Shown: positions 1-28,422 of the stretch, piece after piece
Position numbering within the stretch: position 1 is the stretch's first letter
Layout of the letters: every line of letters starts with the position of its first letter
Assembly: GCA_013416795.1 (NCBI GenBank)
Contig: RQSC01000017.1
Span: forward strand, 211,304 to 251,647
Length of the DNA: 40,344 bases
Reading direction: 5' to 3'
Source: Prasinococcaceae sp. CCMP 1430
Taxonomy: Eukaryota; Prasinodermophyta; Palmophyllophyceae; Prasinococcales; Prasinococcaceae
The notes under the pieces: generated by a model
The model's database searches: none
What the model was told of the DNA's origin: nothing
The model's input: the letters and a program-made list of their open reading frames with translations, nothing else
Program-made: the position numbers and the translations under genes

Positions 1-146
1 CCCCCCCCCCCCCCGCCGCCCCCCCTCCACCTCCTCCCCCCATCCATTCCTCCCGTAGCCACACTGCGCGTCCGACTCGCCTCCCCTCCTCCCCGTTCCC
101 CCTCTCATCAGAGCGCGCGCACTGTGTGCGAGGGCCCAGCGCGACC
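1..146. other. C-rich upstream flank of first gene
   Basis: The window opens with a C-run (1-14) followed by C/T-rich, low-complexity sequence up to the first start codon. It is the probable promoter/5' UTR of the small + strand gene at 147. No TATA box or conserved element is seen. Confidence 0.4.
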
Positions 147-829
147 ATGAGCCAGCCGTACTCCACATGGACGGAGGGCGAGGAGATGAAACCTCCAGGC
201 GGCAACGCCAACACCGTGGCGAAGAACGTACGTGTGTGCTCAGTGCCGCCACTGCGGTGGAAGAGACGGCAGTGACAGTGAAAGCAGCGGCGGAGGCGCT
301 TCGAATGCGCGCGCATGCGTTGGCGCCGAGCTGCAGTCGCTTCTCGCGCGCGCGCCTGGGGCAACGCCGGTCTCCTTCTGCTCGCCGCCGCCGTGCCTCG
401 CTCTAGTATTCGCGCTGCCCTCAATCTCACACCGCGTCCGCTTCGCTCCCCGACCGCACTCGCTTGGGTCCGCCCGCGTGCTCGTCCGGCGCACTCGTAC
501 CGTTGCGCCCCGTGCTCCGCGTGCGCGTAGAACCTCCGGCACGACTGGTTCAACGAGATGCGTGACGAGGGCATTCTCCCCGACAACCGCTGGAAGTTCA
601 TGCCCAACAAGGACAACATCGCGCCGCGGCCCGCTGATTGGGAGCAGCCAGGTACGCAGCGCAGAAGGGCGACACGTCGCTTCGCGTGCCCTCGAGCGTG
701 GCCGTCCGCGAAGCGCGAGCAGCGCCATTAGCGCCACTTTGGCCAGCCACCTCCACCACAGGGACTGACAAGCGCCTACCCGTGCTCGCAATCGTGCCCG
801 CTCGCACATCCACAGACTTCAGCGATTAG
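147..829 (+). CDS. Small hypothetical protein, three exons
   Basis: Proposed exons are 147-227, 531-651 and 816-829, giving about 72 aa. The start ATG has a good context (GCGACCATGA). Exon 1 encodes MSQPYSTWTEGEEMKPPGGN and ends in phase 0 at a GTACGTGT donor. Exon 2 begins after a GCGTAG acceptor, encodes a Trp/Asp-rich stretch (HDWFNEMRDEGILPDNRW) and ends in phase 1 at GTACGCAG. Exon 3 after CATCCACAG gives a short DFSD tail; a CTGAC branch-point-like sequence lies about 50 nt upstream. An alternative acceptor at 761 would give a longer tail (exon 762-829). Neither signal peptide nor membrane segment is visible. The size and acidic/Trp composition recall small accessory subunits of organellar complexes, but I do not recognise the family. 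Confidence 0.5.
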
Positions 830-921
830 CAGCTTGCACCTGCCGACTGAGCGCGCGCACGTCCTTGAGCTCGGCGCGGCCGCGTAGCTGTCGTGTGTTC
901 CATACACGTCGGGCGCGTGCG

Positions 922-927
922 AATAAA
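922..927 (+). terminator. AATAAA poly(A) signal candidate
   Basis: A canonical AATAAA lies 93 nt downstream of the stop codon of the small + strand gene, in the short gap shared with the convergent mitochondrial carrier. It is one of very few AATAAA hexamers near a gene 3' end in this window. Confidence 0.45.
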
Positions 928-972
928 GAATGTCGTATGATACATGCACCAGCGCGCGTGCAGCGCGCACGC

Positions 973-1902
973 TCAGGATTCCTCGGCGCGCTCGAGCTGA
1001 CCCTTGAGCCAGCTGAACACAGCGAACTGGATGGCGTTGCTCGGCCCGATCTTGACAAGGTAGACGCCCGCGCCGCGGTAGAGGCGCCGCACACCGCCGT
1101 CCGCGACGAGCCTGCGGCCAGCCTGCAGGTAGCTCTCCTTGGCGGGCGCGCTGCCGTCCGCAAGTGGCGCGCTCTTGTACTGCAGCCGTCGGCGGATGGT
1201 ATCATTTGGATAGATGAGGAGGCCCGCGAACGTGCCCGCCGCCCAGCCATAGACTGCGGGCGCCCACACGGCGTCGCCTAGGGGCTTGTCCCTGCGCAGC
1301 GCACCGAAAACGCCGAAGCGGATGCCCTCAACGGCCACGGCGCCTCCCAGCGTGGCGCTCCCTCCCGCGTACAGCGCGCGTAGCCCGTGGTGCCCCTTGG
1401 TCGCCTCCATGAACGCCGCATGCCACAGCTCCGCGGCGGTGCCCCTGCCGCCCGAGTGGATGCCGCCTGCGTGGCGCGTGCGCATCAGATCGATGGGGTA
1501 CGTGAGACCGCCGGCGGCGAGGCCCGCCAGCCCGCCTGCTAGCATGTCGCTGCCCGTGGCCTTGCTCAGCGCGTCCTGCGTCGCGAAGAGCGTGCCCTTG
1601 GCGATGATCGCGCGCGACACATTGAGGCCGTTGCCGCGCCACAGGCCCGTGACGCCCTCCTCGCGCACGACGGCCGCGAACGCGGCGACCGGCGCCTCAC
1701 CGGACGCGAGCGACGTCTGCATTAGCAGCCTCACGCGCTCGAGCGGCGCCACCACCGTCTTCGCGACTGCCCCCGCCGCGCCCCCCACCGCCAGCGCCCA
1801 CGCCGTCTGCAGCACGTGAGAGGCCGCGACGCCGCCGAGCGCGCCGCCGCCTCCCTGCTGCGGCGGAAGGTCTGCGCCGCCCGGCGCCCCCGCCACTGCC
1901 AT
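973..1902 (-). CDS. Mitochondrial carrier family (SLC25) protein
   Basis: A single-exon gene of 309 aa, a typical length for six-helix mitochondrial solute carriers of the inner membrane. Three tandem repeats each carry the Px[DE]xx[KR] signature: APLERVRLLMQ, YPIDLMRTR and YPNDTIRRRLQ. The start is the first ATG in frame at 1902; the longer frame upstream opens only from non-ATG codons. The third repeat lacks the RRRMMM signature of ADP/ATP translocase, and the overall pattern looks closer to the CoA / ATP-Mg-Pi / nucleotide-cofactor carrier branch (SLC25A42/A16/A24-like). The substrate therefore cannot be assigned. The N-terminus is Gly/Ala-rich. The gene converges on the small gene upstream in the window. 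Confidence 0.88.
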   Translation of the reverse strand: MAVAGAPGGADLPPQQGGGGALGGVAASHVLQTAWALAVGGAAGAVAKTVVAPLERVRLLMQTSLASGEAPVAAFAAVVREEGVTGLWRGNGLNVSRAIIAKGTLFATQDALSKATGSDMLAGGLAGLAAGGLTYPIDLMRTRHAGGIHSGGRGTAAELWHAAFMEATKGHHGLRALYAGGSATLGGAVAVEGIRFGVFGALRRDKPLGDAVWAPAVYGWAAGTFAGLLIYPNDTIRRRLQYKSAPLADGSAPAKESYLQAGRRLVADGGVRRLYRGAGVYLVKIGPSNAIQFAVFSWLKGQLERAEES

Positions 1903-2690
1903 CCCTGCGGGCGGGCAGGCGGACGAGGTGGGGCGGGGTGGGGTGGGGGTCTTTCCCCGCACGCGCGCGCGGCGTGGCGCGTGTGAGCCCTCTGCCGCCA
2001 CGCGCCCACGCACACGCCCTCGCGGCGCGCGCATGCGGCGCGGCGCAGCGCGCGGTCAGCCACGCGCCCAATTCGCGCTCGCGCGCGCCGCGAATTGCCC
2101 CAACAAATCGCTCCCAGAGCGCGCCGCGCCTCGCGGCGAAACTCCACTGCCGTCGAATTCGGATGGCGGACCCGGATCCCGGGCAGCCGTCCACGGTCTA
2201 GTCCTATTCATCCTAAACCAGACTGGGCAATTCAGTTTGACCCGGTCAAGACCCGGTCACCTCAGCGGTGCCCACCGACCTCTCCCACTCGCACGCCCAG
2301 GCCGATTTTTGATTTTTCTTTTTCTTTTGATTATCCATGCCATAGCATTGAATTTGATGGCGCCGACGGGGAAAAGCCGGCGCGCCGGCGCGCGGCCGAT
2401 CGGCGGAGCGCGATCTCGACGTTCATTCTGACGTGAGCCCACCGCCGCGGACCTCTTTTTTCTTTTTTTTTTTGGCGTGCGCGCGGATGTTGATGTGGGG
2501 CACATCCACATCCACATGACATCATGTGCAGTGCGACGGCACGACGGTTTTTTTGATTTAGATTTAATGGGATTTTCCGCACTGACTGCACTGCTGCGTG
2601 GCGGGCAGGCGCCACTCAGCGCGCGCCCGGGCCCGCCCCCTGCCCCGCCCCCCCCCCTCCTTCCCCCCGGCGAGGGCGGGAGAGGGAGCG
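1903..2690. promoter_or_regulatory. Divergent promoter region, carrier / STT3
   Basis: A 788-bp non-coding gap between divergent start codons. It contains a G-run block (about 1927-1951, four or more GGGG tracts on the + strand, quadruplex-capable), two copies of GACCCGGTCA (2239-2248 and 2250-2259), T-rich tracts (2306-2330, 2454-2475) and a C-run block just before the STT3 start. No RNA gene is recognised. Confidence 0.5.
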
Positions 2691-5305
2691 ATGGTGGCGG
2701 CGTCGATGGCCCGCGCGGCGGCGGCGCGCGTGCTGCAGCTCGCCGCCGTCGTGGTGGCGATGGTCTCGGCGTACAAGTGCGTGTCGCGCGGCGGCGGTGG
2801 CGTCTCGCGCCGATCGCAGCGCCCGTGCGATGCGCGCGCCGCGCGCGGCCCTCGCGGTGCCGAAGCGGTCGCCGCCCACCTGCGTCTTTGACCCGAGTTC
2901 TGACGGCGCGATCCGACCGCCTTCCTCCAATGCCTGTCTTCCCGCCCCGATCTCCGCCTTTGGCCCCGCGCGCGTTTCCTTGTCTTCGCCCCCGCGATCG
3001 CAGCATCCGCCTGTTCGCGGTGAAGAACTACGGCATGCTGATCCACGAGTTCGACCCGTGGTTCAACTTCCGCGCGACGCAGTACCTGGCGGACCACGGC
3101 ACGGAGAAGTTCTTCAAGTGGTTCGACTACATGAGCTGGTACCCGCTCGGCCGTCCGGTGGGCACGACCATCTACCCGGGCATGCAGTTCTCCGCCGTGT
3201 ACATCTGGCGGGCGCTGAACGAGTACCTGGGCGTGGAAATGTCGCTGAACGACGTGTGCGTGATGGTTCCTGCGTGGTTCGGCGCAGTGGCGACCGCACT
3301 GCTCGGCCTGCTGACGGCCGAGTGCAGCGGCAGCGGGTGGGCGGGCGCGGCTGCGTCGCTGGTGATGGCCGTCGCGCCCGCGCACATCATGCGCTCGGTG
3401 GCCGGTGGCTTCGACAACGAGTCGGTGGCGATCACCGCCCTGTGCCTGACCTTTCTGACGTGGAACCGCGCCATCCGCGACGAGCGCAGCTGGCCGTTTG
3501 GCGTCGCCGCGGGCCTCGCGTACGTGTACATGGTGTGGGTGTGGGGTGGCTACGTTTTCGTGCTCAACATGGTTGGCTTGCACGCAGCGTTCCTGGCGCT
3601 CACCGGCCACTTCTCCATGGGGCTGTGGAAGGCGTACTCGCTGTGGTATGTGATCGGCACCTACGGTGCCATCCAGCTGCCGGTGGTCGGCCTGCGCCCC
3701 CTCAAGTCGCTCGAGGAGCTCGCGCCCATGGGCGTGTTCTTCATGCTGCACCTGCTCGCGTACTGCGAGTGGCAGCGCGGCAAGAAGAACCTTTCCAGCT
3801 CGCAGCACAAGGCGCTCATCTTCCGGGCCTTCGCCGGCGCCGGCGCGGTCGGTGCTGTGGGCGTGGCCATGCTCTACCCGACGGGCTACTTTGGCCCGCT
3901 GTCAGCGCGTGTGGCTGGCCTCTTCGTCAAGCACACGCGCACTGGCAACCCGCTCGTCGACTCGGTAGCCGAGCACCAGCCAGCTTCGGCCGACGCCTAC
4001 TGGGCGCACCTCCACATGCTGTGCTATTTCGCACCCGCAGGTTTCGTGCTCTCACTCTTCAGGCTCACGCGTGCCAACTACTTCCTGGTGCTCTATGGCC
4101 TGACCGCGTACTACTTCGCCAACCGCATGAACCGCCTCATCATCCTCATGGGCCCCATCGCCAGCGCACTGTCGGGCGTGGCCATCGGCAAGGGCAACTG
4201 CTGGGCGGTGGACCAGTTCATCGCGCTCGTGAGGTTCCTGGTGTCGGGCGGCAAGGTCGCCGGGCCGAAGGAAGGCGGCAAGGTCGGCGGAGACGCCAAG
4301 GAATCCAAGGACACCAAGGGCAACAAGTCCACTCCGAGCAAGTCGTCGAAGAGCAAAAAGCAAGCCGCCGTGGTAAGCGAGGACGACAGCCTCGCCGACA
4401 CATTCCGCGTGATGAGAAAGCAGCTCGGCAAGCCGCTGGAGTCGGTGTACTACAGCAAACCAGGCGTGCTGGGGCGCGCGGCCCTCGCCGCATGGATCGT
4501 GTACGCCACCGTCACGTACCTCGCGAGCTTCTGGGCGTATTCGCACCGCTTCGCCGCGCAGATCTCACAGCCGTCGATCATTTTCAAGGGTCGCCTGCAG
4601 GACGGCAAGGAGATCATGGTGACCGACTACCTGGATGGCTACAACTGGCTCCGGGAGAACACACCCGAGGACGCGCGCGTGATGAGCTGGTGGGACTACG
4701 GCTACCAGATCACGGGCATTGGCAACCGTACGACGCTTGCCGACGGCAATACGTGGAACCACGAGCACATCGCGCTGCTTGGCCGTGCGCTCACCAGTCC
4801 CGAGCGCAAGGCGCACAAGATCGTCCGCCATCTGGCAGACTACGTGCTCGTGTGGGCTGGCGGCGGCGGCGACGACCTCGCCAAGTCACCGCACATGGCA
4901 CGCATTGGCACGAGTGTCTTCCCCGACATCTGCCCAAATGATCCTCTGTGCAAGGGCTTCGGCTTTTACGACCGCCAGCAGACGCCAACGCCCTCGATGG
5001 CTGCCAGCCTGCTGTACAAGCTTACGCAGCACAAAGTGCGCCCGGGCGTGGAAGCCAACTCGACGCTCTTCAAGGAAGTGTGGAACTCGCGCTACGGCAA
5101 GATGCGCATCTTCAAGGTGCTCCGCGTGTCCAAGGAGTCGAAGGAGTGGCTGGCGGACCCGGCGAACAGGCTGTGCGACGCGCCCGGCAGCTGGTACTGC
5201 CCGGGTCAGTACCCGCCCAAGCTGCCTGGCCCGCCGAAGAGCTTCAAGAAGCTCGACTACGACGAGGCGCAGAAGGCCCAGCCGTTCATGGGCACGCGCG
5301 AGTAA
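2691..5305 (+). CDS. STT3: Oligosaccharyltransferase catalytic subunit STT3
   Basis: Two exons, 2691-2776 and 3004-5305 (intron 2777-3003, GTGCGT...GATCGCAG), giving 795 aa. It is the ER-membrane catalytic subunit that transfers the dolichol-linked glycan to Asn in N-X-S/T sequons. Hallmarks are HEFDPWFNFR at about 43-52 (first DxD-type acidic motif in the first lumenal loop), GGFDNES (second acidic motif), multiple hydrophobic helices, and WWDYG at 591-595, the sequon-binding motif, followed by GYQITGIGNRTTLADGNTW. The first exon encodes the cytosolic start and first helix. Splicing restores a continuous YNIRLFAVKNYG junction. A Lys/Ser-rich insert (about residues 450-480) precedes the lumenal domain. 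Length matches the family. Its presence implies N-glycosylation of the secreted proteins in the window. Confidence 0.95.
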
Positions 5306-5557
5306 GGCTCGCGGCGGGGCGGGGGCGCGCGGCGTGCCGGCCTCACTATTCCATGTTGGCTCGCACGCGCTCAGGAGGCACCCTTTGTACGCGCACTGCG
5401 AGGATTAAGATAGCAGCTTGCTTCCGACGCGCACGCGCGCCAGGCGGTACGCCCGCGCTCGCGCGGCTCGCGCGCGACATCGCTTTGAACGCAACCTCCC
5501 GCGCAGGTCGGGACCCTTCATTTCTACCCGCGCGGGTGGGGCATCGCGCGACATGGC
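5306..5557. other. Convergent 3' gap between STT3 and WDHD1
   Basis: A 252-bp gap between two convergent stop codons. GC-rich, with no AATAAA or TGTAA near either stop and no ORF with recognisable content. Confidence 0.4.
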
Positions 5558-9262: not shown

Positions 9263-9334
9263 TCAGTCCACCTGGTTGTAGTAGTCACTCTGATCGTGGT
9301 AGTCACAGTACTGAGTCAGTGTATTTATACTCAT
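9263..9334 (-). pseudogene. Degenerate Tyr-rich repeat remnant 3' of CUB
   Basis: Just past the stop that ends the CUB frame, 24 codons in a different frame read MSINTLTQYCDYHDQSDYYN..., which resembles the Tyr-rich array unit. It suggests the array once continued downstream of the CUB domain, or that another frameshift separates them. Confidence 0.4.
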
Positions 9335-12019
9335 GGTCCGGCGCCCTGCCCAGCGTCCCCGCCGCCGTCCCCATGAGGATCGGCAGCGCCCTCCTCGCCC
9401 TCCCCGGGAGGATCCGCCAAGTCGCCATAGATCGCCAGCCTGAAGCCACTGCGCGTCACTGAACCGTCCGTTTTGAAAGTGATCGTCAACTGCTCGTTCG
9501 GCGCGACGGTGCCTGCGGGGGGAGCTTGGGTGCCGCAGTACTTGGTGCCTTCGACCGAGACGTCATCATACACGCAAAAGGGATGGGACTCGAGGTCGAA
9601 AGCAGTGAAGCTGTAATTGGCCGGACCATCGATGAGGATGGTTCCGTCCTGGTTGTCGCCGTAATCGCTCGGGTGGTTCAGCGACGTGACCACGGCGCTG
9701 AGAGCGCCCGGGCAGCCGTAGCCGTAGCATTCGTATTCGACGTCGCCGCTGATCTCCACAAACGGCGGCGGCTGACCGTACTCTTGGTCGTGGTAATCAC
9801 TGTGATTTTTGGTCGTGGTAATCAATGTACTCTTGGTAGTTGTAATCACTGTAATTTTGGTCGTGGTACTCACTGTACTCTTGGTAGTTGTAATCACTGT
9901 AATTTTGGTCGTGGTACTCACTGTACTCTTGGTAGTTGTAATCACTGTAATTTTGGTCGTGGTACTCACTGTACTCTTGGTAGTTGTAATCACTGTAATT
10001 TTGGTCGTGGTAATCACCGTACCCATAGTCGTAGTAATCACCGTAACCATGGAGGTGGTAATCACTGTAATTTTGGTCGTGGTAATCACTGTACTCTTGG
10101 TAGTTGTAATCACTGTAATTTTGGTCGTGGTAATCACTGTACTCTTGGTAGTTGTAATCACTGTAATTTTGGTCGTGGTAATCACTGTACTCTTGGTAGT
10201 TGTAATCACTGTAATTTTGGTCGTGGTAATCACCGTACCCATAGTCGTAGTAATCACCGTAACCATGGAGGTGGTAATCACTGTACTCTTGGTCATGGTA
10301 CTCACTGTACTCCTGGTAGTTGTAATCACTGTAATTTTGGTCGTGGTAATCATCGTACTCGGGAGGATCCGCCAAGTCGCCATAGATCGCCAGCCTGAAG
10401 CCACTGCGCGTCACTCGGGTGGTTCAGCGACGTGACCACGGCGCTGAGAGCGCCCGGGCAGCCGTAGCCGTAGCATTCGTATTCGACGTCGCCGCTGATC
10501 TCCACGAACGGCGGCGGCTGACCGTACTCGTAAAAAAAGTCGATACAGCCGTAGTCAGATTCGCTCGCACCCCATGGCGAGCGATTTCTGAGCCACACCG
10601 CGACGTTCGAATCCTGCTCGCAGAAGGCCACCGACTCCCCGTATCCGATGGGTTGGGCGCCCGCATTTGCCAGGGCGTACTGCACGGGACGGAGGGCAAG
10701 GAATCATTCAGACACGGTTGGAGTCAGCGTGCGGCGCGCACAAGACTGCCCGCGACCCCTCAAAGGTCCGTCGGTGCACACGCGAGTTGCTGTGTGCGCG
10801 TCCCAAGAGCGTCGGTACTGACACCCTCACGCACTCCCAACTCGAATGCGCGCTCGGACACGCGCGCACGCACCTCCTTGGTCTCCCAGGTCCCATTGTC
10901 TGTCGGCGCCCGGAGCTCGATAACCGTACTGGCATCGACGTCGAATCTGAACATGTCATCGGAGACAACCGACATGTAGCACGCCTCCTTGCCAAGCATA
11001 TTTAGAGACGACCCGTCACTGAAGTACGAAACTGTGCCAGCGTGGAAGTGACACGCCAGCAACGTGCCGTGGGATGGGACGATGACATGGTTCGAAAAGG
11101 AGATGGCCATCGTCGTGTCATCGGACAAACCTGCCGCCGTGAGCTGCCACCTCTCCAGCCTGCAGTCCTCGTCGCCCACGTTCTTGAGCTCCACGTATGC
11201 AGGCACGAAGTCGTCGGTGGGGCCTTCTGTCCAGCTCCCGTTTGTCCAGCTCCCGTTCGCCGGCGTCTCCGTGTAGTGGCCAAGATTCACCTCCGTCACC
11301 ACGACGCTCGAAGCGTTGCAGCGCTTCGCGCGCATGACTGTAGAGACGTTGGCGGCGTAAGAAGTCGCGTTCTGCAAACGCAGCAGATCGTCGGCCGCGT
11401 TGCGCGTTGGACGCGCGGCCTCGTGCGTCACCATGTAGTACATCCCGTTGTCCGCCCTCCTCACCTCCTTGCACTCGTACTCCCACGCGTCCGTGCGCTG
11501 GCACATCGAGTTCCCGTGATTGTTCATGTAATCCAAATCATCGAGAGCCAGATTGGCAGGGATGACCACTCGCCCGGTCGGTCCAGTGCGCGTGTCGCCC
11601 CGGATATACGTGTACGGGTCCAGGCCATCGTCACAAACGCCCTCGTCGCTCAGCGAATACGCCACCTCCGATTCCATGGGCAGCGACCCACACGTGTCCT
11701 GAAATACACTGTAGCTGTGGCCGTAGCCGTAGCCGTCGCCGTGGACATCGTCGCCGTAGGGGTACTCATACGAGTGACCGCTGTCATCACTGCCGCCGTC
11801 ACCTGGGGGCACAGTGTAGGTGGCGGGCGAAGGCGGGGGTTGGTCGTAGAAGCGCAGCGCGCGCGCACGTGTGTTCTCGCCCACATCCGTGTCGCCGCGC
11901 GGTCCGGCCAGGTACGTGCGCTCGGGCTCGTGAGTGCGTGTCTCGTCTACGTGGGTGTCCTGGACGCACAAGGGCTCCTCCTCGACGGCGGCAGCAGCCG
12001 GTTCAGGTACAGCAAGGGC
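9331..12019 (-). CDS. Secreted LTD/CUB protein with Tyr-rich repeats, frame-broken
   Basis: Proposed pieces, in transcript order. Exon A (12019?-10835) begins after a CCACCCACAG acceptor; no in-frame ATG is near and an N lies at 12116, so the signal-peptide exon is missing. It ends at a GTGCGTGAG donor. Exon B runs from 10679 after CCGTGCAG. Exon A is acidic/Tyr-Gly-rich, then has a lamin-tail-like beta domain (VVVTEVNLGHY, AYVELKNVGDEDC) and tandem NGSW sequons. Exon B leads to EYGQPPPFVEISGDVEYECY, a shortened CUB start, then the Tyr-rich array (about 9781-10349), then a complete CUB domain (TAFDLESHPFCVYDDVSVEG, KYCG, SGFRLAIYGDL). Three different frames carry these parts: a shift at the 10413 junction and another near 9810. 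Probably extracellular and N-glycosylated. Either the consensus has errors here or this copy is damaged. Confidence 0.6.
9781..10349 (-). repeat. 48-bp / 24-bp tandem array encoding Tyr-rich peptide
   Basis: About 570 bp of 24-bp half-units arranged as 48-bp units encoding DYNYQEYSEYHDQNYS (16 aa) on the minus strand. A higher-order period is visible: the variant segment encoding HLHGYGDYYDYGYGDY recurs exactly 216 bp apart (CCATGG at 10047 and 10263). Because units are multiples of three, other frames also stay open (Thr-rich ITVITTTKS on the minus strand; VVVITVILVV on the plus strand). The Tyr frame is chosen because it shares DYHDQEYG with the flanking CUB exon. Confidence 0.85.
10356..10530 (-). 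repeat. Truncated duplicate of CUB-coding segment
   Basis: Matches 9404-9460 joined to 9670-9785 almost base for base (one clear mismatch in the second part). Relative to the downstream copy, 209 nt (9461-9669) are missing at the junction CACT|CGGG. As 209 is not a multiple of three, the joined halves are out of frame with each other. Confidence 0.8.
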
Positions 12020-12115
12020 CTGTGGGTGGCGGTGGGTGGAACAACACCGCGATGGGCGTCGCTCTGACTCCCATGTCGGCAACCTCAGCGTACGATGTCA
12101 CCCTACAGTCATACA

Positions 12116-12116
12116 N
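12116..12116. other. Single ambiguous base (N)
   Basis: An isolated N, about 100 bp upstream of the first recognisable coding sequence of the LTD/CUB gene, whose 5' exon cannot be found. It may mark a collapsed or unresolved gap. Confidence 0.6.
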
Positions 12117-13438
12117 CGCGCCCCGCGCTACGCCACGGCGCCCCGCCCCGCCGCGGGCCACGGCCGCTGGCGCATATCAAATCGCACCCGCCGACCGCCG
12201 CCGCCGACTTGTGGTGCGGGCCGATCTTTTTCGAAAGCCGTCGGATTTTTATTTTTTTTTTCAATTTTTTGCTTCCGTTTTGTTTGTTTTGTTTTGTTTT
12301 GTTCGGTTCGGTTCGGTTCGGTTTGCCTTCGGCGAAGCTGTTTTATTTTATTATTTCTTTTATTTCTTTTTTATTCTTTTCTCTCTTTTATTTTCTTTAT
12401 TTCGTTTTGACTTCAGTTCGCAGCTGCGAAACTTTTTCTTTGCTGCGAAATTTCGTTCTACCGCAAAAAATCGCCCGCCGCCGCGCCGGCGCCCGCGCCG
12501 GCCAGCCAGCTTGCGCCGCCGCGCGCCGCCCCCCCCCTGGAGGTGGCGCGGCCCGGCACTCTGCCCGAGCGATGCCCTGGCTCGTACCCGCCAACCAACA
12601 ACAACTCCCCCCAAGCCCCCTCCCCCACCCCACCCCCTTTGCCCCCCGGCCAGCCCCGCGCTGTGCCGGCTGCCGGCCAGGTCGCGCCGCGCGCGCTCGG
12701 GGAACAGCGGGGCGGTATTAGGGTTAAAATCGTAACCTAAACATCTGGTCGAGGCACCGCACGCGCAGATGTGGGTGAAATGAGGTGATGTGGTGGACCG
12801 TTTTGGAACCCTGCGTTCGGCGCGGTCGCGGTCGCGCGCGCGCGCCGCGGCGCCCAAAACGGGCGCGGGTGTGGGCGCGTGGCTGGTGTCGAGTTGTGAC
12901 CGCGGGGGGAGGGTGGGGTGGGGTGGGGGAAGGGGACGGGGAGGGCCGGCAGCCTGCCCGCACGCACGGCGCCCAAACAGTCCTTTTTTTTTTTAGGACG
13001 AATTTCGCACCGCGCGTCCGCATCGGGTGCGCGCGATGCGGGACGCGCGCGCGAGAGCAGGCGACAGTTGCGGGAGTGGACGGGCGAGAACGTGGCCGCC
13101 ATGTAGTCTCCCCGTCTCGACTTGGCCTCCGCGCACGGGGAGAGGCACGAGAGGGCGCTGGGGGTGCTGCTCCGCGCCAACCTGCGCGCGCGCGTTTTTC
13201 TTCGCCCGATTTTTCGATGGCAAAGGCCCGGAAAACGGGCACGCGCTTCCGCAGCGGCGAGTCGCTGCGGCTGCGGCTGCGCGCTGCGAGTCGCGCGGCA
13301 CGCGCGCTCCCCTAGCTCCCCCGCAGCGGCACCAACGCGCTCAAGTCGCTCTCAGGGGGCTGCGCTCAGACGCTGCTCGGGAGTGTGGCGGGTACGCTCG
13401 GGAGAGAGAGAGATCGAACGCGCACCCTACCGAGTGGG
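12117..13438. promoter_or_regulatory. Intergenic region upstream of PF16
   Basis: About 1.3 kb without a supported gene. It holds a T-rich tract (about 12226-12445) with (TTTTG)n then (TTCGG)n microsatellites, a telo-box-like imperfect inverted repeat TTAGGGTTA...TAACCTAA (12718-12740), a G-run block (about 12904-12945) and a T10 run before AG (12986-12998) that could be a 3' splice site for a 5' UTR intron. Confidence 0.45.
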
Positions 13439-26336: not shown

Positions 26337-28115
26337 TTACAGGGCGCGCAGGGAGGTGCTCGTTGAGCTTTCTGGCCAGCCGGGAATGTTGGCAGACGCC
26401 TCGTTGACAGCCTTAACGAGCATGACGACGAGCTCGGGCACGCCCTTCGGAGGCAGCGCCAGATTCTTGGGCGGGTACTCGTTGGCGTAAGAGCGCTTGT
26501 CGAAGCGCCACTCGCCGATCTTGCCCGGCGTGAACTCGCCCTCCATGGTGTAGTCCATGCCATAGGTGTAGTGTATTTGGTAGAACTTCCCCAAGTGCTT
26601 GTCCCATGGCGGCTGCGCCTGGAAGTGTGGGACGGTGTCGTGCGGAACACCCACCATGGTGGCCGCCATCGTGTATCCGTACATCTCGAGCACCCAGCCC
26701 CACGCCTTGTCGGCCTCGGGATCGTTCTTAAGCGCGATGGAGACGTTCATCCACACCGGCGCAATGCGCGCGAGGTCGTCTGCACGCAGCTGCACAGGCG
26801 AGCTGCCAATTTTCGCCATGGAAGCGAGCTGGTCCTTCTCCAGCGGACCGGTGAAGCGCTGCACGAGGTCGGGGTACTTTGTGGGCTCGATGTAGAAGAA
26901 GGGGAACGCGGCCGCGCGCTCGCCCTGCATGAGGTTGGGTAGCGGGCGCAGCAGCAGGTGGTCGGGCTCGGCCATCAGCACGTAATCCTCCTCGATCGAG
27001 ATCTCCCCCCGGGCGAGCTTCTCCGCCCACTGCACGAACGCGTACGGCCGCGAGAGCACCACAAAGCCGTGATCGCCGCCCTTGTTGGAGAGGTTTTCGA
27101 CCACTACCGTAGGTATCTCGTCCATGAGCTCGTCGGGACGCCCACTGTGCAGGATGCGCGTGAAGCCCCCCATCGCGCCGTCGGGGCCCTGCGCCGCGCG
27201 CTGCTTCTTGTAGTGATAGTACATGACACGCGTCTGCCACTGCACGTACACCGCTTGGTTGGCCGTCACCAGCACGTGGAACTTGCGCTTGGCGCCCGGC
27301 GCGTTCGCGTCGGCCTCCGGCCCGCGCGAGGGTCCCGCGTGCAGCGCGCCGCTCGTCCACACCGAATCGGCGCTCATCACGGGCGGGTTGGCAGGATCAG
27401 GCACGTTCTTGAGCCAGCACGCGCCTTTGACGCTGCCGGCACACCCGTCCTCCTCGGGGCAGTACACCCACACGTTGCACGGCTTCGTACCCGCCGCGTC
27501 CGCGTCAAACGACCGACACGCGTCACAGCACTCCTCCAGACTGCTCGTGACGTGGTGCTCGCCCCACTTGACCACGTCGCCCCCGTACTCGGTGCCCTCC
27601 TCAGCGTGGCACGGCAGCGCCTCCGCGTCCGCACCACCGCTGCTGCCCCTCGCGTCCCCGCCGCGCGCGCCGGACTGCTCTGCGTCGGGCTTCTGCACGG
27701 CCTTCTCGTACATGTTGATGCCCTGCGCGCGCTCGGCGTCCGCACCCGCGCGCACGGCCGCGACGGCCGCCTCGAAGCGCGCGAGCTGCTCGTTACCCTC
27801 GGCGAGGTTGGGTCGTGCCTCGCCCGAGCCCCGCACCTGCTCCTGCTCCTGCCTCTCGCGCTGCACGGGATCGCCCGCGACGTCTCCGGGCACGCCCGCT
27901 CCGCCTCGCCGCCCCCCGCCGGATGGATTGCCCGCTGCTGCCGACCCGTGCACCTCCTTGAGTCTCGTGAAGTCGTGCTCGCCGTGCAGCCACGCGCTCG
28001 CGTCGTAGCTCCGCGCGAGGTCCGAATGGCCGAGCAGCGACGACACAGCCGCGTACCCCATCGCGCCGGCGAGCAGCAGCAGCACCGCCTGCACCCTGCT
28101 CGGCCCCCCCGCCAT
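26337..28115 (-). CDS. PAN-domain hydroxyproline O-arabinosyltransferase (HPAT)
   Basis: A single exon of 592 aa; start ATG at 28115. Residues ~5-25 form a type II signal anchor (VQAVLLLLAGAMGYAAVSSL). A stem with charged residues follows. Residues ~169-257 are a Cys-rich PAN/apple-like module (SSLEECCDACRSFDAD, CNVWVYCPEEDGC, GACWLKN). From F279 the HPAT/SERGT catalytic domain matches plant HPAT1-3 closely: FHVLVTANQAVYVQWQTRVM, MGGFTRILHSGRPDELMDEI, YVLMAEPDHLLLRPLPNL (acidic metal-site region 381-386), FPFFYIEP, NVSIALKNDP, KIGEWRFDKRSYANEYPPKN. The family adds arabinose to hydroxyproline of extensin-like proteins, or galactose to Ser (SERGT), in the Golgi. Which sugar is used here is not decided. 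It stands divergent to the LamG gene. Confidence 0.92.
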   Translation of the reverse strand: MAGGPSRVQAVLLLLAGAMGYAAVSSLLGHSDLARSYDASAWLHGEHDFTRLKEVHGSAAAGNPSGGGRRGGAGVPGDVAGDPVQRERQEQEQVRGSGEARPNLAEGNEQLARFEAAVAAVRAGADAERAQGINMYEKAVQKPDAEQSGARGGDARGSSGGADAEALPCHAEEGTEYGGDVVKWGEHHVTSSLEECCDACRSFDADAAGTKPCNVWVYCPEEDGCAGSVKGACWLKNVPDPANPPVMSADSVWTSGALHAGPSRGPEADANAPGAKRKFHVLVTANQAVYVQWQTRVMYYHYKKQRAAQGPDGAMGGFTRILHSGRPDELMDEIPTVVVENLSNKGGDHGFVVLSRPYAFVQWAEKLARGEISIEEDYVLMAEPDHLLLRPLPNLMQGERAAAFPFFYIEPTKYPDLVQRFTGPLEKDQLASMAKIGSSPVQLRADDLARIAPVWMNVSIALKNDPEADKAWGWVLEMYGYTMAATMVGVPHDTVPHFQAQPPWDKHLGKFYQIHYTYGMDYTMEGEFTPGKIGEWRFDKRSYANEYPPKNLALPPKGVPELVVMLVKAVNEASANIPGWPESSTSTSLRAL

Positions 28116-28422
28116 CTCCGCGCGCGCCCTTGTGGCCACGCGCGTAACTCACCGGCGCGCCGTCCGCGCGCGCGTGCGCGCGCGAGGGGCGGGGGTGGGG
28201 TGGGATGGGAGGGGGGGGGGGGGGGCTCGCGCCGCGCGCGGTGTGCTGCGCCGCACGAGTTCGACCACCGGCCACCCCTGTAGTATCGCGCGAATTCGCA
28301 TTCGCACCCGTCGCTTGCTTCCGCCGGGTCCATGCCGAGTATGTGAAGTTGCGACGGTTGTGTGTGCGTGCGCGTGCGCGCGTGCGTGCGCGTGCATGTG
28401 CGTGCATGTGTGTGTGTGCGTG

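Follow-up and report, generated by a model that had tools for sequence, protein, structure and literature searches.

Domains and repeats of the locus

The window, the whole stretch of DNA analysed here (40,344 nucleotides), covers positions 211304 to 251647 of contig C58 in the 24.5-Mb genome (145 contigs) of Prasinococcaceae sp. CCMP 1430. The feature under study lies on its minus strand, where an exon resembling a lamin-tail domain (LTD), a putative intron, a truncated CUB domain, a tyrosine-rich tandem array, a complete CUB domain and a short tyrosine-rich remnant follow one another in that order (Table 1).

Table 1. Features of the locus, listed in the direction of reading; positions are those of the window.
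Feature	Position	Strand	Basis
Exon 1, LTD-like, with six N-X-S/T sequons; open frame 12097-10760	10874..12019	-	445-aa ORF
Short Tyr/Gly-rich stretch SYEYPYGDDVHGDGYGYGHSYS within exon 1	11710..11790	-	Read from translation
LTD-like stretch, sub-threshold	11054..11230	-	PF00932, 15.7 bits (cut-off 34.3)
Putative intron, 194 nt, GT-AG, phase 0 (GTGCGT...CCGTGCAG)	10680..10873	-	Frame and splice-site inspection
CUB copy 1, truncated; 209 nt of core missing, frame broken at about 10415	10360..10529	-	Alignment to copy 2
Tyr-rich array, 22 clean octads with two invariant Tyr each	9827..10354	-	TRF, octad decomposition, autocorrelation
Degenerate array edge with frame shift (A-run and substitution, about 9803-9810)	9772..9826	-	Sequence against consensus unit
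CUB copy 2, complete; CUB domain 9436-9696	9405..9783	-	PF00431, E 2.9e-9, 37.6 bits
C-terminal Tyr-rich remnant QYCDYHDQSDYYNQVD, in the array's frame and not that of CUB copy 2	9263..9330	-	ORF listing

The array occupies about 9772-10357; TRF reports one array (9778-10360; period 24, 24.2 copies, score 688), and octad decomposition gives it a unit of 8 residues, or 24 nt, with the consensus [SG][DE]Y(HD/NY)Q(N/E)Y. Its tyrosine frame is the ORF 10423-9797, and the clean octads within this frame are 31.8% tyrosine and contain 44 aspartates and glutamates, 14 histidines, nine N-Y-S sequons and neither lysine nor arginine. Two octad types, DYNYQEYS and DYHDQNYS, are broken up by HLHGYG-DYYDYGYG (the pair C-D) in the order BABCDBABABABCDBABABABA, and this order produces a higher-order period of 216 bp, recovered by autocorrelation with 94.9% identity at lag 216. 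The tyrosine-dense array of the initial annotation, about one-third tyrosine, is therefore real and its 216-bp period is borne out, while the 16-residue unit described there is a dimer of the two octad types. The motif GTGAGT, which resembles a splice donor, occurs within E-type octads and the acceptor-like TACAG at most octad boundaries (9827-10354), so that splicing within the window array is conceivable.

The complete CUB domain scores 37.6 bits (residues 36-122 of its ORF; 37.3 bits in the genome search), above the curated cut-off of 21.4 bits for PF00431. Its best matches in the PDB include cubilin (the closest, E 4.8e-16) and procollagen C-endopeptidase enhancer (E 5e-12), but these CUB proteins, like MASP, lack the combination of CUB domain, tyrosine-rich array and LTD-like part seen in the window, and outside the CUB part there is no credible match. 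Over 170 aligned nucleotides the truncated copy upstream of the array shares 169 with the downstream copy; the 209 nt absent from it correspond to positions 9461-9669 of copy 2, a length that is not a multiple of three.

The match of the 445-aa ORF to PF00932 (residues 290-348, E 0.02) falls below the curated cut-off in the window exon, and the score is not raised by removing the putative intron (15.9 bits, E 0.017). Run on one sequence, AlphaFold2 gives the LTD-like piece an all-beta model with a mean pLDDT of 41, too low to use. Among the domains that had been proposed for this region, the CUB domain is thus confirmed and the N-glycosylation sequons are readable in the LTD-like exon, while the lamin-tail domain is reduced to a weak assignment by resemblance. 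The predicted intron, if spliced, can link the LTD-like frame with CUB copy 1.

As assembled, the window copy is rearranged and is not a single open gene. Three breaks interrupt its frame: at the 209-nt gap, in the last array unit (an extra base beside the A-run, plus the substitution), and before the tyrosine-rich tail (about 9300-9320). The spliced frame extends no further than the beginning of the array, and the earlier proposal of LTD, array and CUB in one protein finds no support in the assembled frames. A gene-wide single open frame was rejected, as were tiny introns (11-28 nt) at the breaks, which are implausible. Neither a start codon nor a signal peptide could be placed for the window gene, and the assembly is patchy at its 5' end: a single N at 12116 is flanked on one side by 127-131 bp that match contig C121 at about 99-100% and on the other by 323 bp (12138-12460) that are 100% identical to C52:494509-494831. 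A 98%-identical CUB fragment on contig C72 is likewise bounded by a single N, and the position of such Ns beside near-identical fragments suggests forced joins in the assembly.

We accordingly give an even chance to the reading that the window locus is a pseudogene, or that its structure (the second CUB copy, the 209-nt gap, the shifted frames and the 5' end) is partly an artefact of assembly, its paralogs being functional genes; this reading concerns the window locus only, and is compatible with the others considered below. It draws on the three frame breaks and on the single Ns here and on C72, as well as on the difficulty of assembling a near-perfect 24-bp array with short reads. Against it, N is absent within 9263-12115, one of the breaks coincides with a deletion at a microhomology, an ordinary biological event, and the unit at the array edge carries several changes, not one homopolymer error.

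The array at other loci

A genome search with the tyrosine-frame protein finds a second array on contig C76, in a stop-free ORF of 1359 aa in which RCC1 repeats (PF13540, E 2.5e-59) and a Pro-rich hinge precede 30 octads, followed in turn by an LTD-like part (24-28 bits, below the PF00932 cut-off) and a further uncharacterised region; array, RCC1 repeats and LTD-like part all lie in one frame. A DNA search yields a third array, at about 74% identity, on contig C95. The ORF of 1248 aa at this locus contains a TM-like segment (recognised by eye) and the diverged array (NQEYSEYYDNQEYSEYHNQEYS...), together with a ZU5 domain that scores 27.8 bits (cut-off 21) and a C-terminus rich in Pro. Both of these ORFs use the minus-strand tyrosine frame, and a plus-strand reading of the window array (the LVVVITVI frame) was rejected for this reason. 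It is mainly these two paralogs that support the original view of the array as a coding, extracellular-type, tyrosine-rich module. On C76 (319500-326500), RCC1-type repeats continue, in different frames, upstream of the 1359-aa ORF; the RCC1 repeat array, too, is therefore frame-broken in the assembly.

When Q[DE]YS[DE]Y is scanned for genome-wide as a degenerate DNA pattern, there are 28 matches, all of them in the window, C76 and C95 loci (reversed control, 0), and this motif scan reveals no fourth copy of the array in the genome. Searches of viral contigs and of 84,980 bacterial and archaeal genomes returned pattern matches only, none of which was confirmed by tblastn; the window has no match in Rfam, and for algae a literature search on tyrosine-rich repeats combined with CUB or LTD found nothing relevant.

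The arrays share codons that are rare elsewhere. In the C95 array seven of eight serines are encoded by AGT and seven of nine glutamines by CAA, whereas outside the array the two paralog ORFs use AGT for 10 of 222 serines and CAA for 8 of 63 glutamines. Since convergence would not copy codon choice, these shared rare codons show that the arrays descend from a single DNA element, transferred from gene to gene. We thus show that the tyrosine-rich octad array is a coding module of three otherwise unrelated modular genes, one that has spread as DNA; it would illustrate how a low-complexity module can pass between genes in this manner. A change in array length by unequal exchange fits the higher-order periods, which differ between the window (216 bp) and C76 (264 bp, 97.1%), and with the nearly identical CUB copies these agree with the recent exchange suggested initially.

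The CUB domain, too, has moved between genes. Profile search of the contigs finds it to be otherwise rare in the genome, and the window CUB DNA is 89% identical to one CUB in a subtilisin-CUB-trypsin-CUB protein on contig C32; at the protein level, identity to the first CUB of that ORF is 82%. The C32 ORF itself (104187-105503, 736 aa) is an unusual double-protease chimera, with a subtilase, a CUB domain, a trypsin, a second CUB domain and Pro-rich hinges.

The null reading is that the array is a coding minisatellite, expanded in a linker region and copied between genes by recombination, with a composition of little or no specific function. The homogenised sequence and the different periods at two loci are what such a minisatellite would give, and the window copy tolerates frame breaks. 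In the window and C76 arrays an open tyrosine frame is weak evidence, as four of the six frames are open there, and GC3 in these arrays (0.585 and 0.633, respectively) is lower than in the host ORFs (about 0.78-0.83). Both tyrosines of the octad are retained in 52 of 52 octads while the remaining positions vary, although in homogenised arrays most of this conservation could stem from recent copying and not from selection. We nevertheless consider the minisatellite reading unlikely: all three arrays are oriented and framed alike within their host ORFs, and in C95, a single diverged array, no frame but that of tyrosine is open and the Q-E-Y-S-[DE]-Y pattern persists.

Possible roles of the tyrosines

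Cross-linked coats are repeatedly built with tyrosine-rich extracellular repeats. We propose as the most likely role, with somewhat less than even confidence, that the array is a disordered, N-glycosylated extracellular linker whose tyrosines are cross-linked in a matrix by heme peroxidase and peroxide. As an acidic module, disordered to judge from its composition, it would sit outside the cell as a linker, a location to which the CUB domain, sequons, Pro-rich hinges and TM-like segment point. Its regularly spaced tyrosines, many of them in Tyr-X-Tyr (12 in the window array and 17 in that of C76), would be oxidised, with peroxide, by a heme peroxidase of the cell surface and would couple to (iso)dityrosine, whereby proteins with CUB, LTD-like, RCC1-like or ZU5 modules would be fixed into the cell coat; unequal exchange, by changing array length, would raise or lower the number of sites for cross-linking. 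Such a matrix or glue role is made plausible by the Tyr-X-Tyr motifs, by the paralogs' Pro-rich hinges and by the genome's peroxidase genes.

There are two animal-type heme peroxidases in the genome, one of them DUOX-like. The latter (C38:3800-11000, ORF 250-4953, plus strand) combines an animal heme peroxidase domain (E 2e-110) with EF hands and a ferric-reductase-like TM part below cut-off; a neighbouring ORF (4889-5425) resembles a NOX C-terminus by eye. The other (C130:400-5500, ORF 3-3485, plus strand) carries a heme peroxidase domain (E 5e-136), FG-GAP/ASPIC repeats and a C-terminal TM-like segment, and is by its architecture a candidate membrane-anchored surface peroxidase. Peroxidases have other roles, and their presence in a genome is not specific to cross-linking.

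Cited systems, together with these peroxidases, lend circumstantial support. Tyr-X-Tyr is needed in vitro for extensin cross-linking (PMC8160292), and in the cuticle of C. elegans tyrosine cross-linking is driven by DUOX as the source of peroxide (PMC3447965). The animal cuticle thus resembles the proposed system in the coupling of extracellular tyrosines by DUOX/heme peroxidase, for which the algal genome has a DUOX-like gene, although the cuticle substrate is collagen and evolutionarily unrelated to the array. Like extensins and chimeric extensins (HRGP superfamily), the array proteins are modular, probably extracellular proteins with Tyr-X-Tyr in repeats, and the C76 and C95 paralogs carry Pro-rich hinges; a long Pro-rich block is absent from the window copy. 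Points against cross-linking are the three frame breaks of the window copy, for which no signal peptide was identified, and the absence from the octads of the Ser-Pro(3-5) blocks which accompany Tyr-X-Tyr in extensins. The octads are acidic and bear N-glycosylation sequons; Pro-rich stretches occur elsewhere, in the two paralogs only, and on its sequence the array fails the classical definition of an extensin. We know of no sequence relation between the array and the isodityrosine wall proteins of Chlamydomonas, which, unlike the array, are hydroxyproline-rich glycoproteins. Isodityrosine cross-links occur in Chlamydomonas walls and reinforce those of the zygote, a green-algal matrix hardened by tyrosine coupling as we propose for the array (PMC6912462). 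Classical extensins, with their Tyr-X-Tyr blocks, are reportedly absent from green algae, which have long chimeric ones (PMC4769139).

The strongest chemical rival to cross-linking is sulfation, in which the [DE]-Y runs would be substrates of a tyrosylprotein sulfotransferase (TPST) and the array a surface segment of strong negative charge, either hydrated or binding metal. The 33 and 49 [DE]Y per array, in the absence of lysine and arginine, suit the plant TPST, which prefers Asp-Tyr near acidic residues, and TPST has been reported in chlorophytes, where its canonical peptide substrates have not been found (PMC13074997). The genome has four Sulfotransfer_2 matches, yet proteins of this family have many other substrates and the four are TPST candidates only. 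Sulfation would also leave the Tyr-X-Tyr motifs and the His-containing interruptions unexplained, and we regard it as improbable.

A broader version of the cross-linking proposal takes the tyrosine-rich minisatellite for a transferable cross-linking cassette: several surface proteins of one alga, otherwise unrelated, would have received it in frame by copying, and with it a shared, peroxidase-coupled anchorage in the coat, its length being tuned by unequal exchange. We find this extension rather doubtful. The octad at three loci of a compact algal genome that also has a DUOX-like gene would make a small, testable system for tyrosine cross-linking of an algal coat.

Other genes of the genome

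The window also encodes PF16/SPAG6, with its best match in the PF16 axoneme structure 7n6g, from Chlamydomonas, and a hydroxyproline O-arabinosyltransferase with an N-terminal PAN domain (26340-28148, minus strand; HPAT, E 2.9e-130). Chlorophyll a/b-binding proteins are numerous in the genome, and the best of them (C68) matches green-type LHC proteins in the PDB, being closest to the very long LHCI chains of 9vfj (431-1048 aa). From these genes we conclude that the organism is a green-type alga with flagella. Some LHC matches fall in ORFs of 2598-6555 aa, which may represent LHC polyproteins or long overlapping ORFs.
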